From Lentisphaerota bacterium (lineage in GTDB: Bacteria > Verrucomicrobiota > Lentisphaeria > Victivallales > Victivallaceae), in NCBI GenBank assembly GCA_015061775.1, contig SUVY01000015.1:1-47677 (forward strand): a DNA stretch of 47,677 nt, written 5' to 3'. Below the pieces are notes generated by a model, which was given only the letters and a program-made list of their open reading frames with translations, ran no database searches and was not told where the DNA came from. Of the stretch, positions 25,628 to 38,008 are shown piece after piece; positions within the stretch are counted from its first letter, which is position 1; each line of letters starts with the position of its first letter. Made by a program: the position numbers and the translations under genes.

Positions 25628-27784
25628 ATGAAGCGTTTTTGTGCAGTTGTTATCGCAATGCTCGTGTCGTTGCAGGTTTTTGGCGAATCATATCCACGTT
25701 TCAAACGCATCGGCGGTTTCATTGATGTAAGGATCACAGGCGTCAATGCAAAAGGAATAAAGGTATCTCACTCAAACGGACTCGGATATTTGAATGAGAA
25801 AAACCTTGATGAAGACGAAATCGCGCAGGTCAAAAAATATTACGATCAGTATGTGAGAAAAAAACAGGCGGAAGAGGCTCGTAAAAACGCAGCGCGTGCG
25901 AAGAGAAGATCCGCGTTGGCAAAGCTCAAAGCTCAGCAGACTGCCCGCGAAGATTTCATCAAGGCAGCTGCAGAAAATGATATTGAGAAAGTAAAAAAAC
26001 TTCTCGGCACAGGGGTGAATATCAACAGCAAAAACAGCCGCGGAGTTACTGCGTTGATGAATGCCGCAAATGCCGGAAATGTTGAGATCGTCGAGTATCT
26101 CACCACCCGCGGAGCAGATGTGAATATAAGATCAGTTGCAGGAAAAACTGCGTTGATGTATGCGGCGGAAAATAATAAACCCCAAGTCATCCCTGTTCTG
26201 CTCAAAGCCCGTACCGCACTGAAAAGCGCAGACAACAGTACCATTATCGCGCTGATGTATGCGGCTTCAGATGGATATGTTGAAGTCGTTGAAGCGATGT
26301 TGAAAAACCGCGTCAATGTCAATATCCGTGATAATAGCGGAATGACCGCTCTTGCTTATGCTGTACTGCATAACGAGATCGAAATGGTCAAAATGCTTCT
26401 TGAACACGGAGCGAATGCCGATGTCCGCAACCATCTCGGAATGACTCCGTTGATGTACGCAGCCCGCCACTATTCAGGAGAAGTTTTTACGCTTCTTATG
26501 TCAGAGAAAAAGAGTCCGAAGAAAAAAGCCCCCCAAGCCGCTGCTCCCGCGCCTGCTGCGGACGCCCAAGCCGTGCCTCCTCCTGCCGATGGTGCTGCTC
26601 CTGCTGATGCTCAGCAGCCCATTGCGGACGGAGGAGAAAACACTCCGCCTCCGCCGGATGGAGAAAATCCGCCGCCCGCGCCTGCCGGAGATGAAGCTCC
26701 CGAGGATGTTCCGACTGACGAGAAAAAAGACAAAGTCTATTATGCCAATCATCATTTGCTCGACAATAACGGCTGGTCACCTCTTATTTACGCTGTGCTT
26801 TACCGCAATATAGATGTTGTCCGTATTTGGCTTGCTCAGGACAGTATCAGATTGGCTGCCAACGACAAAAGCAGCGAAGCCGGAGTTCGCGCAAATGCCA
26901 TAATGAGGGCGATATATATAGCCGAAGAGTCTGGCGGAAGGGCATCGATCGCAAGTTTGCTCAGAGCCGCGCTCAGAGATATGAAGGTCGAGTACAAACG
27001 TGAGGAAGCTCATAAAGCAGTATATGAAAGCGTAAGTTATTCAAATATCCCCAAGGAGATCCTTGATACAACTACTGTTGAAGATTTGGCGAGAAGCAAA
27101 GCTTTTCCGAGCGTGGAAAATATTCTCTGGGCACGTTCTTCCAAAGGATGGTCTCCTGATTTGCTCCACGGACTTGGCACCGTCGAGGATGAGTCAGGTG
27201 AAAGTCGCGGGGGATGTGTGCAGTTTTTGAACCTTCCGACCGAAGGCGGCTACGGAAAACTGGTCATACTGCCGCTTATCAGCAATGAAGGAAAAAATAT
27301 CGCCATATACGAAAATGAATACCGTATCGGCAAGGAGCTTGAAGCATTCAACAACGGATATCAACGTTCCGACTCCGGAAAATCATCTGGAAGCGATGAC
27401 TCATCTAATGGAGTAAGTCTCAGTGACAGCACAAGTTCTTCCAAAGGCAGTTATGTCTGGCGCAATGACCGTTGGCTCAACGAGCGCGGAGTAAATACCC
27501 ACGGTGTCACCGATGGTCAGGAGTTATATCGCGCAGTAGCAATGGCTTATGAAAAGCGGGTACAGGGTGTCGTTAATATATATCAGTATCTTTCGGGACG
27601 TGTCAATAACCGCAAGGTCACCGAGATCGCACGGGACAACTATATGAGCGGTTTCCTCGCCAAAGGCTGGTATATCGCGATGTTTTCCCAGGGAAAACGG
27701 CTCTATTATGCCGTGTTTCCTGTTGACCGCGGAAACGTGATAGTCAATTTCAAAGAGATGTATTTCATCAAAAAGATCAGATAA
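25628..27784 (+). CDS. secreted ankyrin-repeat protein with SHD1-like N-terminus
   Basis: A 718-residue protein. Residues 1-20 form a signal peptide (MKRFCAVVIAMLVSLQVFG). Residues about 24-75 resemble the SHD1 domain common in this superphylum (GIKVSHSNGLGYLNEKNL). A basic coiled segment leads to ankyrin repeats from about 110 to 290 (GVTALMNAANAGNVEIVEYL). An Ala/Pro-rich linker (about 297-362) interrupts the array, and one more repeat follows (NNGWSPLIYAVLYRNIDVV). The C-terminal 280 residues are unrecognised and include a Ser-rich patch. It is a plausible periplasmic or surface scaffold. Its ankyrin part recalls the operon protein at 10196, but the domain order differs. Confidence 0.75.
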   Translation: MKRFCAVVIAMLVSLQVFGESYPRFKRIGGFIDVRITGVNAKGIKVSHSNGLGYLNEKNLDEDEIAQVKKYYDQYVRKKQAEEARKNAARAKRRSALAKLKAQQTAREDFIKAAAENDIEKVKKLLGTGVNINSKNSRGVTALMNAANAGNVEIVEYLTTRGADVNIRSVAGKTALMYAAENNKPQVIPVLLKARTALKSADNSTIIALMYAASDGYVEVVEAMLKNRVNVNIRDNSGMTALAYAVLHNEIEMVKMLLEHGANADVRNHLGMTPLMYAARHYSGEVFTLLMSEKKSPKKKAPQAAAPAPAADAQAVPPPADGAAPADAQQPIADGGENTPPPPDGENPPPAPAGDEAPEDVPTDEKKDKVYYANHHLLDNNGWSPLIYAVLYRNIDVVRIWLAQDSIRLAANDKSSEAGVRANAIMRAIYIAEESGGRASIASLLRAALRDMKVEYKREEAHKAVYESVSYSNIPKEILDTTTVEDLARSKAFPSVENILWARSSKGWSPDLLHGLGTVEDESGESRGGCVQFLNLPTEGGYGKLVILPLISNEGKNIAIYENEYRIGKELEAFNNGYQRSDSGKSSGSDDSSNGVSLSDSTSSSKGSYVWRNDRWLNERGVNTHGVTDGQELYRAVAMAYEKRVQGVVNIYQYLSGRVNNRKVTEIARDNYMSGFLAKGWYIAMFSQGKRLYYAVFPVDRGNVIVNFKEMYFIKKIR

Positions 27785-32044: not shown

Positions 32045-33022
32045 TTATTGGTGGTCGAAGTACCAGCGGCAAGTCCGGCTCAAACCCTCTTGCGCCGTAA
32101 CGAGGACGCGGTAATTGAGGAATTTTTTCGCAAGCTCGATGCTTCCGAGCGAGTGCGGAATATCTCCAGCGCGATTTTCTCCATATTCCGGAGAAATCTC
32201 AGCCGCCCGGGGATCAAATTGTGCCAGCGCATCTTGAAGAGCTGCAAAGAGCCCATTGAGATCAAGTTCGCTGCCGCAGGATACGTTATACATCTTTTGG
32301 CACGCGTCGCTGCCTGCCTCAAGGGCGAGACAGTTTGCAGATACTACATTATCTATATAGGTGAAGTCTCTGGAGTAAGAACCGTCACCGTTGATGTGCG
32401 GACTCTTGTGTGCGAGCAGACTTCCGATAAACTTGGGAATGACCGCCGCATAAGCGCCGTCAGGGTCCTGTCTTCTGCCGAATACATTGAAGTAACGCAA
32501 TCCGATGACTTCAATTCCGTACAGTGCGGAAAAATTAAGTGCGATAGTCTCGTTGCTCTGCTTGGATATCGCATACGGAGAAAGTGCTTTGCCTGTCTTT
32601 TCTTCAACTTTTGGAAGCGTTTTTTCGTCTCCGTAAACCGAGCTTGAGGAAGCGAAGACAAATCTTTTGACTCCGTTTTCAACCGCCGAGTGGAGTATAT
32701 TTGTAAATCCGTACACATTGACTTCTATGGTCGTTGCCGGATCTTTGATCGATCTCGGAACCGAACCGAGAGCTGCTTCGTGCAGAATATAATCCATACC
32801 GGCTGTCGCTCTGTCACAAACGGCACGGTCGCGGATATCACCTTCGATAAGCTCAAAATTGGAACTTTTTGCCGCTTCGTCGAGATTTTTGCGGTATCCG
32901 GTAGAGAAATTGTCTAGTACGCGGACAAAAGCTCCCTCTTTCAGCAAATAGTCTGTGAGATTTGAGCCGATAAATCCCGCGCCTCCTGTTACCAGAATTT
33001 TTTTGCCGTCAAATCTTGCCAT
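32045..33022 (-). CDS. NAD-dependent UDP-hexose 4-epimerase (WbpP/GalE-like)
   Basis: An extended short-chain dehydrogenase of 325 residues. The NAD-binding loop is GGAGFIGSN, and the active site has Ser-rich SSSSVYGD and YAISK (Tyr and Lys). The segments RRQDPDGAYAAVIPKF and GDGSYSRDFTYIDNVV match the WbpP group, which epimerises UDP-GlcNAc or its uronic acid at C4. It likely makes a sugar nucleotide for lipopolysaccharide. It follows arnD by three bases, with GGAG inside arnD's end, so it belongs to the same message. Confidence 0.88.
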   Translation of the reverse strand: MARFDGKKILVTGGAGFIGSNLTDYLLKEGAFVRVLDNFSTGYRKNLDEAAKSSNFELIEGDIRDRAVCDRATAGMDYILHEAALGSVPRSIKDPATTIEVNVYGFTNILHSAVENGVKRFVFASSSSVYGDEKTLPKVEEKTGKALSPYAISKQSNETIALNFSALYGIEVIGLRYFNVFGRRQDPDGAYAAVIPKFIGSLLAHKSPHINGDGSYSRDFTYIDNVVSANCLALEAGSDACQKMYNVSCGSELDLNGLFAALQDALAQFDPRAAEISPEYGENRAGDIPHSLGSIELAKKFLNYRVLVTAQEGLSRTCRWYFDHQ

Positions 33023-33025
33023 GAT

Positions 33026-33925
33026 CTACTCCGCAAGCAGTTGTACTGCAAGTTTTCCCTCTCTTCCGGGAAACTCCTTGAGCTGCATTTTTCCGGCAGG
33101 AGCTTTGTCGGCAAATTCAGCCGCAGCTTCGCCCAGAGTGATAAATCTGTAACCGGCAGCCAGCGCCGCTTTTACATAATTTGCAAACATATCTGAGCAG
33201 CGTCCTCCTTCAGCTTCTGCATGGATGGTGAGGACATTGAGCTTATCTTCTCTCAGCAGGGACAACTGATAATCATTGTAGTTGCTGTCAGTTACTCCGT
33301 CGCATCCCAACGCTTCGTCGTAGGTCGGAAGCGTGACCGGTATCTGCATTTGAGACAGCTTTTCTCCATTGACGACCGGATAGAACGGAAATGAACCGCG
33401 GCAATCACTGTTATAGGCGAAGTTAAATTTGCTTTTAACTTCAAGCAGCTGATCGTTCGCTCTCCATCCCGGAGCAGCTGTGCTGGAGGGAAAAACTCCC
33501 AATATGCGCTGCAGCTCTTCTGTTCCTCTGCGGAGCTCTCCGGTCATGCGCTCAACGCTCATATCCGTAAGGTGCGCCTGGGCGTAATGGTGATCCCAGG
33601 CGTGAAATCCCGGCTCGTTGCCGGCTGAAATAATGTCGCGTATCGCCTGTTCGTGGTGTTTTCCGATTTTAAGTCCAGGCCATGCAGTGCCCATCAGCAC
33701 GATTTCCGGACCGTAAAGTCCGGCGGCATTGGTGCGGAGCATTTTCCAGAGAAAAGCCGGTTTGAGCAGTCGCCACAGATGGCGGCCCATGTTGTCCGGA
33801 CCGACGGAAAAGTAGAATGTGCCTTTGATACCGAGGTCGGAAAAAATCTCCCCCAGACGGGGAACTCCCCGTCCGGTTCCGCGGTATGTATCTACATCAA
33901 TGCGTAAGGCGATGGTCTTGAGCAT
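33026..33925 (-). CDS. arnD: ArnD-like deformylase (polysaccharide deacetylase fold)
   Basis: The family removes the formyl group from undecaprenyl-phosphate-L-Ara4FN on the path to aminoarabinose-modified lipid A. The 299-residue protein starts LKTIALRIDVDTYRGTGRG (metal-binding Asp-x-Asp) and has the second metal motif as FHAWDHHYAQ, then SSTAAPGWRAN, all as in ArnD. It starts two bases after the arnA stop. The pairing with ArnA supports the assignment over a generic chitin deacetylase. Confidence 0.85.
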   Translation of the reverse strand: MLKTIALRIDVDTYRGTGRGVPRLGEIFSDLGIKGTFYFSVGPDNMGRHLWRLLKPAFLWKMLRTNAAGLYGPEIVLMGTAWPGLKIGKHHEQAIRDIISAGNEPGFHAWDHHYAQAHLTDMSVERMTGELRRGTEELQRILGVFPSSTAAPGWRANDQLLEVKSKFNFAYNSDCRGSFPFYPVVNGEKLSQMQIPVTLPTYDEALGCDGVTDSNYNDYQLSLLREDKLNVLTIHAEAEGGRCSDMFANYVKAALAAGYRFITLGEAAAEFADKAPAGKMQLKEFPGREGKLAVQLLAE

Positions 33926-33927
33926 GA

Positions 33928-35922
33928 TTACTCGGCGGTGAATTCACCGGATTTGATCGCTTCATTGAGGAAGAAGTCCAGAGTGGTCTCGATAGACTGG
34001 TCGAGAGTGATCTCCGGAACCCAGTTGATATAACGTTTTGCGTTTTTGATGCTGGGTTTGCGGTGCTGGACATCCTGATATCCTTTGCCGTAAAAGGCTC
34101 CGGACTCAACTACGATGAAACCGGCGAACGGCGGGAATTTATCGCGCAGCGGATGGGCATCGAATTTCTTGACGAGAGTCTCAGCCATCTCTTTGATGCT
34201 CGCTTCGTTGTCGGGATTACCGATGTTGATGATTTTTCCGTCGCAGCATCCGTTCTCGTTCTCGATGATGCGGAAGAGAGCCTCGCTGCCCTCTTTGATA
34301 TCGACGAAGCAGCGTTTCTGCTCTCCGCCGTCAATGAGCTGGATGGGTGAACCCTGAACCAGATTGAGGATCAGCTGGGTGATGGCACGGCTGCTGCCGA
34401 TACGCGCGCTGGTGAGGCTGTCGAGACGGGGGCCGATCCAGTTGAACGGACGGAACAGCGTGAAGTTGAGCTGTCCTTTTGCTCCGTAAGCCCAGATGAC
34501 GCGGTCGAGCAGCTGCTTGCTGCTGGAGTAGATCCAGCGCTGCATGCTGATGGGACCGGTGATGAGTTTGCTGCTGTCCTCATCGAAGTTCTCATCGGTG
34601 CACATTCCGTAAACTTCGCTTGTTGAGGGGAAGATGATGCGTTTGTTGTATTTGACGCAGTAGCGCACGATCTTGAGGTTCTGCTCGAAGTCGAGCTCGA
34701 AGACGCGCAGCGGATTGCGGGTGTACTCGATGGGAGTAGCGATGGCGACCAGCGGAAGCACGATATCGCACTTGCGGACATGGTATTCGATCCACTCGCT
34801 GTGGATGGTGATATCTCCCTCGCGGAAGTTGAAGTTCTCTCTGCCGATCAGGTGGTCGATATAGTTGCTGCGCAGGTCCATTCCGTAAACTTCATATTTG
34901 CCGGACTCGAGCAGACGCTCGCTGATGTGGCTGCCGATGAATCCGTTGACACCGAGGATGAGGACGCTCTTTTTGCGGCCGGCGTTTTTGATACGGACGG
35001 GGTCGATGTTCCACTTCATGTTGGCGACGATCCTGCCGTCTTTGGCAAGCTGGCTGCCGGACTGGCAGATGCCGTTCTCAAACTCTCCGGAGGTGATTTC
35101 GACAGCCTTGTCTCCGCAGGCAACTACGAGCGGATCGGCAGAGATGACGGTTCCGGCGGCGGCACCGGTGGTGTTCTCGACGATCTTGGAGCCCCAGAAG
35201 AAGCATTTTCTGTCTCCGAGGAAGCTGAAGGCGCCGGGATAGGGTTTTGTGACAGCGCGGATGAGGTTGTGAACAGCTTCGGCACTCTTGTTCCAGTCGA
35301 TTTCACCGTCTTTTGCGCAGCGTCCGCCGTAGGTGGTGGCGTCTGCGTCGTTCTGAGGAATACGCTCAGCAGTTCCGTTTGCCAGTTTGGGCAGGGTGGT
35401 CTTGAGCAGTTTTTTTGCGGCATCGACAGCTTTGCCGAAGACGGTTTTCGCGGTGTCGCAGCAGCAGATGTCAAAACGCTCCTGAGCGATGATGTCTCCG
35501 GCGTCGGGTTTGTTGGTCATATAGTGCAGAGTTACTCCGCTCTCGGTCTCGCCGTTGATGATCGCCCAGTTGATCGGAACTCTTCCGCGGTATTTCGGAA
35601 GCAGTGATCCGTGGAGATTGACCGCTCCTTTTGCCGGGATATCGAGGATATCCTGCTTGAGGATGTTGCGGTAGTAGAAGCTGAAAATGAAATCCGGCTG
35701 CATCGCGCTGATCCTGCCGACCCAGACCGGGTGGTTGACGTTTTCAGGAGCATAGACCGGAATACCTTTGCTTACTGCAAGTTCGGCGACTGAGTCAAAC
35801 CAGATGTTTTCGTTTTTGCTGTCCTGATGGGTGAAGACGGCGCTGATTTCGTAACCTGCCTCAAGCAGTTCATTTATGGCGGCGCAGCCGATGTTGTGAT
35901 AGGCAAAGACAACACACTTCAT
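33928..35922 (-). CDS. arnA: bifunctional UDP-L-Ara4N formyltransferase / UDP-GlcA dehydrogenase ArnA
   Basis: A 664-residue two-domain enzyme. The N-terminal half (about 1-300) is a formyltransferase with [12 protein letters not shown] (Asn-x-His) and DAGDIIAQ (Asp). The C-terminal half (about 310-660) is an NAD-dependent decarboxylating dehydrogenase with [32 protein letters not shown] and [11 protein letters not shown]. Both length and order match E. coli ArnA. ATG at 35922 follows AAGGAG by seven bases and begins [16 protein letters not shown] at 35940 is rejected because it overlaps that ribosome site. The aminotransferase ArnB, which works between the two ArnA reactions, is not in this window. 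Confidence 0.93.
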
Positions 35923-36169
35923 AATTAAGCTCCTTTTCAAAACTTATTTGTGGAATATTTACTATAAACTTTAATGTAATATACATCATCATTCCGTTGT
36001 TTTCCAGTATGCAGGCATTTTATTTTGAAACAAAATGCGGACGGCACGTTTTTTTGAAAATGCAAGTGCGTAATCGGAATTTTTTTTAACAAAATTTCAC
36101 ATGTTTTTGTCGAAAAGCATTTGCAATATTGGCACTTGCGGGATATTTTGATAGAGTTGCACCACAGGG

Positions 36170-36178
36170 TTATCAACA
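36170..36178 (+). promoter_or_regulatory. DnaA-box-like site TTATCAACA
   Basis: Differs from the E. coli consensus TTATCCACA at a single base and lies five bases before the tandem 11-mer array. Confidence 0.5.
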
Positions 36179-36182
36179 GGGG

Positions 36183-36215
36183 TTGTTAATAACTTGTTAA
36201 TAACTTGTAAACAAC
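36183..36215 (-). repeat. three tandem 11-bp DnaA-box-like repeats
   Basis: TTGTTAATAAC, TTGTTAATAAC and TTGTAAACAAC stand head to tail with no spacing. On the minus strand each full copy contains TTATTAACA, which matches seven of nine bases of the DnaA-box consensus. The 11-bp period is about one helical turn, so bound proteins would sit on the same face. A fourth exact copy is at 36435-36445. Confidence 0.7.
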
Positions 36216-36434
36216 TTTTTATGAGGAGCGAAGTTGAGCTGGCGTGTTCATAAGCTCTCAATTTTTTGTCTGAAACAGCAGTGTTGAGGCGTTGTACGGC
36301 ATAGAAAGACGTGTTTTTGAGCTCAAAATCACTCTGTCTGACTGTACAAAGGCTCCTGTTTCAGCAAGGATCGTGTGGCTTGCATGATAATGAAAAATAT
36401 TGTAAACCGTTGATTTGCCGCAGAGGAATGTACG

Positions 36435-36445
36435 TTGTTAATAAC
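36435..36445 (-). promoter_or_regulatory. fourth TTGTTAATAAC copy, candidate dnaA autoregulatory site
   Basis: An exact copy of the 11-mer 32 bases before the dnaA ATG. Bound DnaA here could repress its own transcription or translation initiation. Confidence 0.5.
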
Positions 36446-36477
36446 TTTCAGGCAAAACAGTTTTGAGCAGAGGAAAT

Positions 36478-37857
36478 ATGGAACAGTCTGAGTTTAGAGC
36501 ACAGCAGGTATGGAGCATCGCTTCACACCGCCTGATGGAAAAGCACCGGGAGCTTTATGCCACCTGGTTCAGCAAGCTTGTTCCGTTGCGCTGCACCAGC
36601 AATGAACATGGGGAAACCATCGTTCTCGGAGTCAATGACGATTTCTTCGGCCAGTTTATCAGCGAGGATTACAACGATCAGATGTCCGAAGCCCTCCGGG
36701 ATATCGACGGAGTCAATTACCTTTATGAGTGGGAGGCGGGACATATTCCTCCGAGCACTCCGCAGCCTCCGCCTCCGCCGGCACCGGTTGCCAAGGCGAT
36801 CGAGCCCAAGCGGCCTCAGCTTCGTCCGGGCAGCGGAAGAGAGTTCACTTTCCAGAATTTCATCGTGGGCGACGAGAACCGTCACGCCTTTGCCGCCGCC
36901 AAAGCGGTATCTGAAATGCCCGGAGAGATCTACAATCCGCTCTTCATTTACGGTCCGAGCGGAGTCGGCAAGACCCACCTGATGAATGCCATTGCCTCTG
37001 CTATTCAGGAGAAGAATCCGAGACTGCGCATCCGCAATATGACTTGCGATGAGCTTCTTACTGATTTTTATAATCTGCTCACCCAGCACCAGAGTCTGGC
37101 GGAGTTCAGATCGAATCTCCGCGATGTCGATGTGCTTCTCGTGGATGATGTCCATAATCTCGCGCAGAAGAAGCAGATCCAGGAGGAGTTCTTCAATGTG
37201 TTCAATACATTGTATAAGCGCAATGCGCAGATAATTCTGACAAGCGACCGCCAGCCCTGCGAGCTTTCCGGAATCGAACAGCGTCTGACCACCCGTTTTG
37301 AGTCTGAGATGGTGACAGAGCTCAATATGCCGGGATTTGAGGCACGTATGGCGATATTGAGGATGTGGAGAAGTGATATTCTCTCATCGTCGCCGCTTCC
37401 GGATAAATTCCTTGAATTTGTAGCGACCAATATCACTTCGAGCGTGCGCCGTTTGAAGAGTGCGTTTTTCCGTCTTGCGACTTACGCTTCGCTCAGCGGA
37501 AGCTCCGAGTTGACCATAGAACGTGCCGAAGAGCTTCTCCGCGCTCAGATCGCGCAGGAGAGCCGCGAGGTCTCCATAGAGACTATCCAACGCCAGGTGT
37601 CAAAGTATTTCGGAGTAAGTATAACCGACATCCTCGGCGGACGGCGAACCAATAATATAGTTATTCCGCGTCTGATAGCCATGTACCTCAGCCGCGAACT
37701 CACTTTGAAGTCAACAAATGAGATCGGAGCCGCATTCGGACGCAATCATGCGACGATCCTCTCGGCTGAGAAGCGTATAAAAGAGCTGTGCGAGAAGGAT
37801 GAAAATATCCGGCGTTCAGTAAGCCAGCTGCGCCACGAGATAAAGAAGGGCAGCTGA
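36478..37857 (+). CDS. dnaA: chromosomal replication initiator DnaA
   Basis: A 459-residue AAA+ initiator. Domain I covers about 1-80. A Pro-rich linker (PPSTPQPPPPPAP) forms domain II. The AAA+ core has Walker A GPSGVGKT (159-166) and Walker B LLVDDVHNLA. Domain IV carries IVIPRLIAMYLSRELT and the DNA-contact helix. The usual signature GGRDHTTV reads FGRNHATIL here (R422-N-H-A-T426), changing Asp to Asn and Thr to Ala. The ATG at 36478 follows AGAGGA by five bases; an in-frame TTG at 36463 is rejected because it lies upstream of that site. Length and order are normal. dnaN is not adjacent. Confidence 0.95.
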   Translation: MEQSEFRAQQVWSIASHRLMEKHRELYATWFSKLVPLRCTSNEHGETIVLGVNDDFFGQFISEDYNDQMSEALRDIDGVNYLYEWEAGHIPPSTPQPPPPPAPVAKAIEPKRPQLRPGSGREFTFQNFIVGDENRHAFAAAKAVSEMPGEIYNPLFIYGPSGVGKTHLMNAIASAIQEKNPRLRIRNMTCDELLTDFYNLLTQHQSLAEFRSNLRDVDVLLVDDVHNLAQKKQIQEEFFNVFNTLYKRNAQIILTSDRQPCELSGIEQRLTTRFESEMVTELNMPGFEARMAILRMWRSDILSSSPLPDKFLEFVATNITSSVRRLKSAFFRLATYASLSGSSELTIERAEELLRAQIAQESREVSIETIQRQVSKYFGVSITDILGGRRTNNIVIPRLIAMYLSRELTLKSTNEIGAAFGRNHATILSAEKRIKELCEKDENIRRSVSQLRHEIKKGS

Positions 37858-37872
37858 AAAAGCAAGTTTTTG

Positions 37873-37907
37873 AGGAGTTTTTCCGACAGGATAAGCTCCT
37901 TTTTTTT
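37873..37907 (+). terminator. candidate terminator after dnaA
   Basis: AGGAG (37873-37877) can pair with CTCCT (37896-37900), followed by a T run to 37907. The loop is long (18 bases), so it is moderate evidence only. Confidence 0.45.
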
Positions 37908-37943
37908 GGCACAAAATCTATGTTTTTTGTCATGAAAATAATC

Positions 37944-37972
37944 TTGTAAAAAGAGCATTCAGATGGTATTTT
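37944..37972 (+). promoter_or_regulatory. candidate promoter of the glycosidase gene at 38009
   Basis: TTGTAA (37944-37949), 17 bp, TATTTT (37967-37972), followed 36 bases later by the ATG, with AAGGAG in between. Confidence 0.5.
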
Positions 37973-38008
37973 AAGTAAAATCTTAAAATATTGTAAGGAG
38001 TTGATAAT

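Follow-up and report, generated by a model that had tools for sequence, protein, structure and literature searches.

The window analyzed in this work, i.e., the whole stretch of DNA of 47,677 nucleotides, is contig C60 of the draft genome (G000) of a gut Lentisphaeria bacterium, of 2.70 Mb in 107 contigs, whose closest named relative is a genome of the Lentisphaeria assembled from a sheep colon metagenome (DnaA identity 84%). It harbors the single dnaA gene found in this genome; no dnaN is present within the window, this gene being located on contig C65. The features of the dnaA region, in window coordinates, are the following:

36129..36157, + strand: predicted sigma-70-like promoter (TTGGCA-17-TAGAGT, the -10 being preceded by TG), whose end is 25 bp from the array
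36170..36178, + strand: DnaA-box-like TTATCAACA, in the orientation opposite to the array
36183..36193, - strand: 11-mer unit 1, exact, reading TTGTTAATAAC on the + strand, with box TTATTAACA at 36184-36192
36194..36204, - strand: 11-mer unit 2, exact copy of TTGTTAATAAC, with box TTATTAACA at 36195-36203
36205..36215, - strand: 11-mer unit 3, degenerate (TTGTAAACAAC, 2 mismatches), with box TTGTTTACA at 36206-36214
36245..36253, - strand: putative weak box TTATGAACA
36403..36415, + strand: IHF/HU-bend-like site YAANNNNTTGATW, located 33 bp upstream of the single box
36435..36445, - strand: single exact 11-mer, with box TTATTAACA at 36436-36444, 32 bp before the dnaA ATG
36478..37857, + strand: dnaA, 459 aa, with Pfam Bac_DnaA and Bac_DnaA_C above cut-off and the domain IV loop FGRNHAT

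The genes lying at 32045-35940, divergent from dnaA, code for an ArnA-like formyltransferase-epimerase fusion, a polysaccharide deacetylase and a second epimerase, a group resembling a lipid A aminoarabinose set.

The TTATTAACA boxes of the array and of the single site all read on the minus strand, and the single 11-mer box lies 241 bp from unit 2 of the array. The original prediction, made from the letters of this DNA, was largely accurate as to this layout: the tandem at 36183-36215 is present, although its three head-to-tail 11-mers are unequal (two exact and one degenerate); the near-consensus box placed five bases before them exists, but the gap is of four bases; the fourth exact 11-mer was found close to the dnaA start, whose ATG is at 36478; and both the non-classical, DnaA-box-like consensus and the 11-bp phasing were confirmed, in an array that is kept in relatives. 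The only row outscoring the array in a tandem-repeat scan of the window is a 27-bp repeat at 26629-26682. One might suppose that these are AT-rich repeats assembled by chance, given the composition of the motif TTATYAACA and its genome-wide count (43), which is not above that of its reversed form (42). The local cluster, however, is of a different kind: the 537-bp dnaA intergenic region contains four TTATYAACA sites against 0.0086 expected from the genome-wide frequency (P ~2e-10), a number reached by 0/2000 dinucleotide shuffles, and TTATTAACA occurs three times in the window against 0.30 expected (0/100 shuffles). Chance has virtually no probability as an explanation, and the order-wide conservation of the array had already refuted it.

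Indeed, matches to the array (≤3 mismatches) were found in 41/60 relatives, mostly 200-1000 bp upstream of dnaA, and with all loci oriented, a box pair spaced by 11 bp was found before dnaA in 50 analyzed upstream regions of relatives. In 33 of these 50, a single box in the same direction follows 217-278 bp past the array (mean 249), and among relatives its distance from the dnaA start ranges from 37 to 357 bp. The absence of conserved 11-mers near dnaA in relatives, which had been named as an outcome that would contradict the prediction, is therefore not what the comparison returned. Several same-genus relatives have the array 450-990 bp from the dnaA start; in some members of the genus it is up to 991 bp away from dnaA and the script recognized no single box. 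In one same-genus draft (G018, L064), DnaA carries RDHAT and no boxes stand before dnaA, and a perfect array is found on contig C76; it is possible that this mismatch reflects contamination or a second dnaA lineage. As for the IHF-like site YAANNNNTTGATW, it is exact and in nearly the same place at two loci (L003, L004) and has one mismatch at four others (L005, L023, L024, L027); it is conserved in part of the genus and not beyond, and for this reason it was rejected as a core part of the module. The genome encodes one gene of the HU/IHF family.

In this clade, base 6 of the box is A instead of the C found in canonical DnaA boxes (TTATCCACA); the box thus falls outside the TTWTNCACA class as defined by TTATNCACA with C at position 6 and represents a near-consensus variant of it. 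The residue at position 433 of DnaA was compared with the TTATNNACA sites in the 1 kb upstream of dnaA. Position 6 was A in 80 and C in 5 of the sites of N433 genomes (A in 80/96), A in 32 and C in 1 in T433 genomes (A in 32/48), and C in 6 and A in none in the D433 outgroups, the chance level being ~1.5 per letter or less, with ~1 each expected for A and C in the N433 genomes; the D433 class comprises three genomes only, and related genomes are not independent in these counts. The recognition loop, GGRDHTT in B. subtilis (8btg), reads GRNHAT or GRTHAN in the clade, with one Gly deleted. In some other families of the order, the second Gly is retained and the Asp is replaced by N or T. The E. 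coli loop is GGRDHTT as well. Both D433 and T435 are among the DnaA residues recognizing the box, and a T435M DnaA is defective in box binding (PMC7561715; PMC5742627). The tie between N433 and A6 is not strict, since three outgroup genomes with an NHAT DnaA (L098, L101, L105) have mixed or C6 boxes. On the whole, comparison of the sequences suggests that the repeats are likely DnaA boxes with a clade-specific consensus, TTATYAACA, with TTATTAACA in place of TTATCCACA, and that the box variant would match the changed DNA-reading loop of the DnaA of this clade.

The same region had also been proposed as a candidate chromosomal origin, a reading that is suggested by phased boxes in an AT-rich intergenic region adjoining dnaA and by a small skew change near dnaA in G036. 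The GC-skew check on relatives, which the prediction itself had named, speaks against it. G036, a member of the same order, consists of one contig of 3.66 Mb; its cumulative skew reaches the minimum near 3.13 Mb, ~0.6 Mb from dnaA (at 0.065 Mb), and adjacent 5-kb windows pass from -0.29 to +0.24 at 3.131 Mb, upstream of dnaN. G065, of the same family, has its flip at ~1.676 Mb, beside gmhA, and its dnaA at 3.045 Mb, ~1.4 Mb from the minimum. No skew flip at dnaA was seen across the window or in the 172 kb around dnaA of G015, so that the locus does not sit at a GC-skew minimum in the relatives or, locally, in the window, its own genome being a 107-contig draft. Moreover, separate box clusters exist elsewhere. 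A four-box TTATYAACA cluster is found at the G036 flip, between gmhA and dnaN-recF (C1:3130777-3130948, L159/L188), the only one in the sequence sampled (~1/3 of the genome plus the flip region); in G065, boxes at 1676322 and 1676433 stand beside gmhA (L194, C1:1676322-1676441), the other flank being a gene that we take, from its sequence by eye, to be DUF721/DciA-like; and in several relatives boxes precede dnaN or occupy the interval separating it from gmhA. The candidate oriC of the genome studied here is at C65:523-625, where TTATCAACA(-), TTATCCACA(-) and TTATTAACA(+) fall within 103 bp; dnaN is also on this contig, at a distance of 10 kb. The dnaA locus was rejected as the origin on skew, and we regard that part of the original prediction as very improbable. 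A GC-rich stretch precedes the dnaA array, with at most one TAG triplet (a DnaA-trio reading made by eye only). In this group of organisms, box clusters occur both at dnaA and at the origin that skew defines; since boxes of this type are clustered at the sharp flips of G036 and G065, the box type can be assigned to the initiator.

A third location of the boxes is linked to a dif-like sequence, TCGCATAATNTNNRTTATGTTAA, present in 49/60 relatives and mostly once per genome, which resembles E. coli dif, the dif site being the place of final chromosome separation. In both G036 (1.479 Mb) and G002 (96 kb of C39), the dif-like sequence is close to the skew maximum. Loci combining it with an 11-mer array are:

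G000:C9:15371-15513 (L199): dif-like site and 11-mer array
G002:C39:96090-96233 (L200): dif-like site and 11-mer array
L205, L206, L207, L062 and L132: dif-like site and 11-mer array

In ten genomes, the starts of the array and of the dif-like site are exactly 100 or 102 bp apart, the array being invariably on the XerD side and in the same orientation. A gapped pattern of half-site plus box was found in 95/199 relatives, with 101 matches versus ~10 for the reversed control, and the gap from the XerD half-site to the box is 79-81 bp in 84 of the 101 matches (31 lengths being allowed), in about 80 Lentisphaeria genomes; in G036, the gap from the dif-like site to the box is 66 bp. A search beyond Lentisphaeria, which also covered canonical boxes, did not return the linkage in this form, the few scattered matches being at chance level. 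In the genome studied here, two TTATYAACA within 150 bp occur only at dnaA (C60), at the dif-like site (C9) and at C65:523/617. The dif-side array of G000 and G002 was considered as an oriC and rejected: the presence of the dif-like site, together with a skew maximum in G002:C39, indicates that this locus is the terminus. The spacer between dif and the array often contains a dyad, e.g., TTGCAACAT-N13-ATGTTGCAA in G026 (L199, L200, L206 and the pattern matches), and in some genomes an IHF-like motif. A tentative and rather doubtful idea is that clade-type DnaA arrays mark dnaA, oriC and dif alike, and that the dif array, 79-81 bp from the XerD half-site, might form a DnaA-XerCD complex tying initiator status to termination or dimer resolution. 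If the dif-linked box binds DnaA, an event at the terminus would involve the initiator; no such site is described in the literature searched, where nothing relevant on Lentisphaeria DnaA boxes, oriC or dif-DnaA links was found by title and abstract.

The occurrence at dif, unexpected for DnaA, might suggest that a different regulator binds the boxes, the near-palindromic GTTRTTAAYAAC in 11-bp tandem being its operator; the units are indeed near-palindromic, and L003 has the full palindrome GTTGTTAACAAC. Such a regulator would not account for the way in which box base 6 varies with DnaA residue 433, for the same boxes at skew-defined origins or for the C6 boxes that outgroups carry at similar places before dnaA, and we consider it quite improbable.

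Coming back to DnaA as the protein that would bind the array, the boxes lie between a predicted promoter-like element and the ATG, that is, in the dnaA promoter region. TTGGCA-17-TAGAGT is one of two promoter matches, with a chance mean of 1.7, and matches the consensus weakly; among relatives, promoter-like matches precede the array more often than in shuffles (50% vs 14%), most -10 ends being 22-39 bp before the box. Since the -10 element ends at 36157, the array would lie within ~50 bp after the transcription start. A structured leader RNA was rejected, no Rfam match being found at E up to 1 in 35000-38000. That DnaA regulates its own gene is established for E. coli (PMC5742627) and for B. 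subtilis (reference in PMC13220808). Hence, the most probable function of the array, as far as its arrangement indicates, is dnaA autoregulation: we give a probability of about two in three to the reading that Lentisphaeria-type DnaA boxes (TTATYAACA, A6) form an autoregulatory module for dnaA. In such a module, two strong boxes and a weak one stand head-to-tail just downstream of the promoter-like element, with a further strong box in the same direction ~250 bp downstream, near the dnaA start; ATP-DnaA would load on the array as a short head-to-tail filament, which may reach the distal box by looping, and the array-bound DnaA would block or modulate the dnaA promoter. Here we infer DnaA binding, looping and the sign of regulation. 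The sequence evidence is in line with the autoregulatory part of the original prediction, the boxes being DnaA-box-like, conserved, phased by 11 bp and placed where such a site should be; the part that fails is the candidate origin. A point against the module is the 450-990 bp that separate the array from the dnaA start in several same-genus relatives, a long distance if the array were a simple operator.

According to a different reading, the array and the distal box, together with a bend of HU type, would make up a datA/DARS-like element titrating DnaA or altering its nucleotide state, its place before dnaA being inherited and transcription control secondary. The length from array to single box is kept (217-278 bp) while that from box to ATG varies (37-357 bp), as would fit such an element; the strong boxes all have one direction, as in datA, part of the genus has an IHF-like site at a constant position, and a similar array is present at dif. 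In datA, the direction and spacing of the boxes count, as does one IHF site (PMC5742627). On the other hand, the IHF-like site is not kept outside part of the genus, and nearly all the genomes inspected have the unit linked to dnaA. The datA and DARS of E. coli are not known to lie at dnaA, unlike the array described here, which stays with this gene; datA acts by promoting the hydrolysis of DnaA-bound ATP, aided by an IHF site. We regard this explanation as unlikely, though clearly less so than the origin or the different regulator.

Two implications may be noted. Origin predictors seeking TTATCCACA near dnaA would miss these boxes and misplace the origin in Lentisphaeria; moreover, the paired change of DnaA residue 433 and box base 6 represents a natural experiment on the joint change in specificity of an essential initiator and of its sites.

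As in the autoregulated dnaA genes of E. coli and B. subtilis, DnaA boxes stand here in the dnaA regulatory region beside a promoter-like sequence; what differs is the TTATYAACA box and the strict 11-bp head-to-tail array with a distal box ~250 bp away. The head-to-tail boxes of E. coli oriC and datA, which ATP-DnaA reads, are separated by 2-bp gaps, i.e., they have an 11-bp phasing. Head-to-tail 9-mers, 2-bp gaps and strong boxes in one direction are shared with those arrays; in contrast, the array described here is off the skew flip, has few boxes and is linked to dnaA. With the bipartite oriC of B. subtilis (oriC1 before dnaA) it has in common a box cluster upstream of dnaA and, possibly, a loop partner, whereas the Lentisphaeria tested have their skew-defined origin 0.6-1.4 Mb off, near dnaN or gmhA. 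Thermotoga maritima DnaA recognizes a divergent box sequence. Its loop likewise has neither the second Gly nor the Asp (FNRSHP, chain 2z4r) and goes with a non-classical box, but both the loop residues and the box differ from those of the clade described here.
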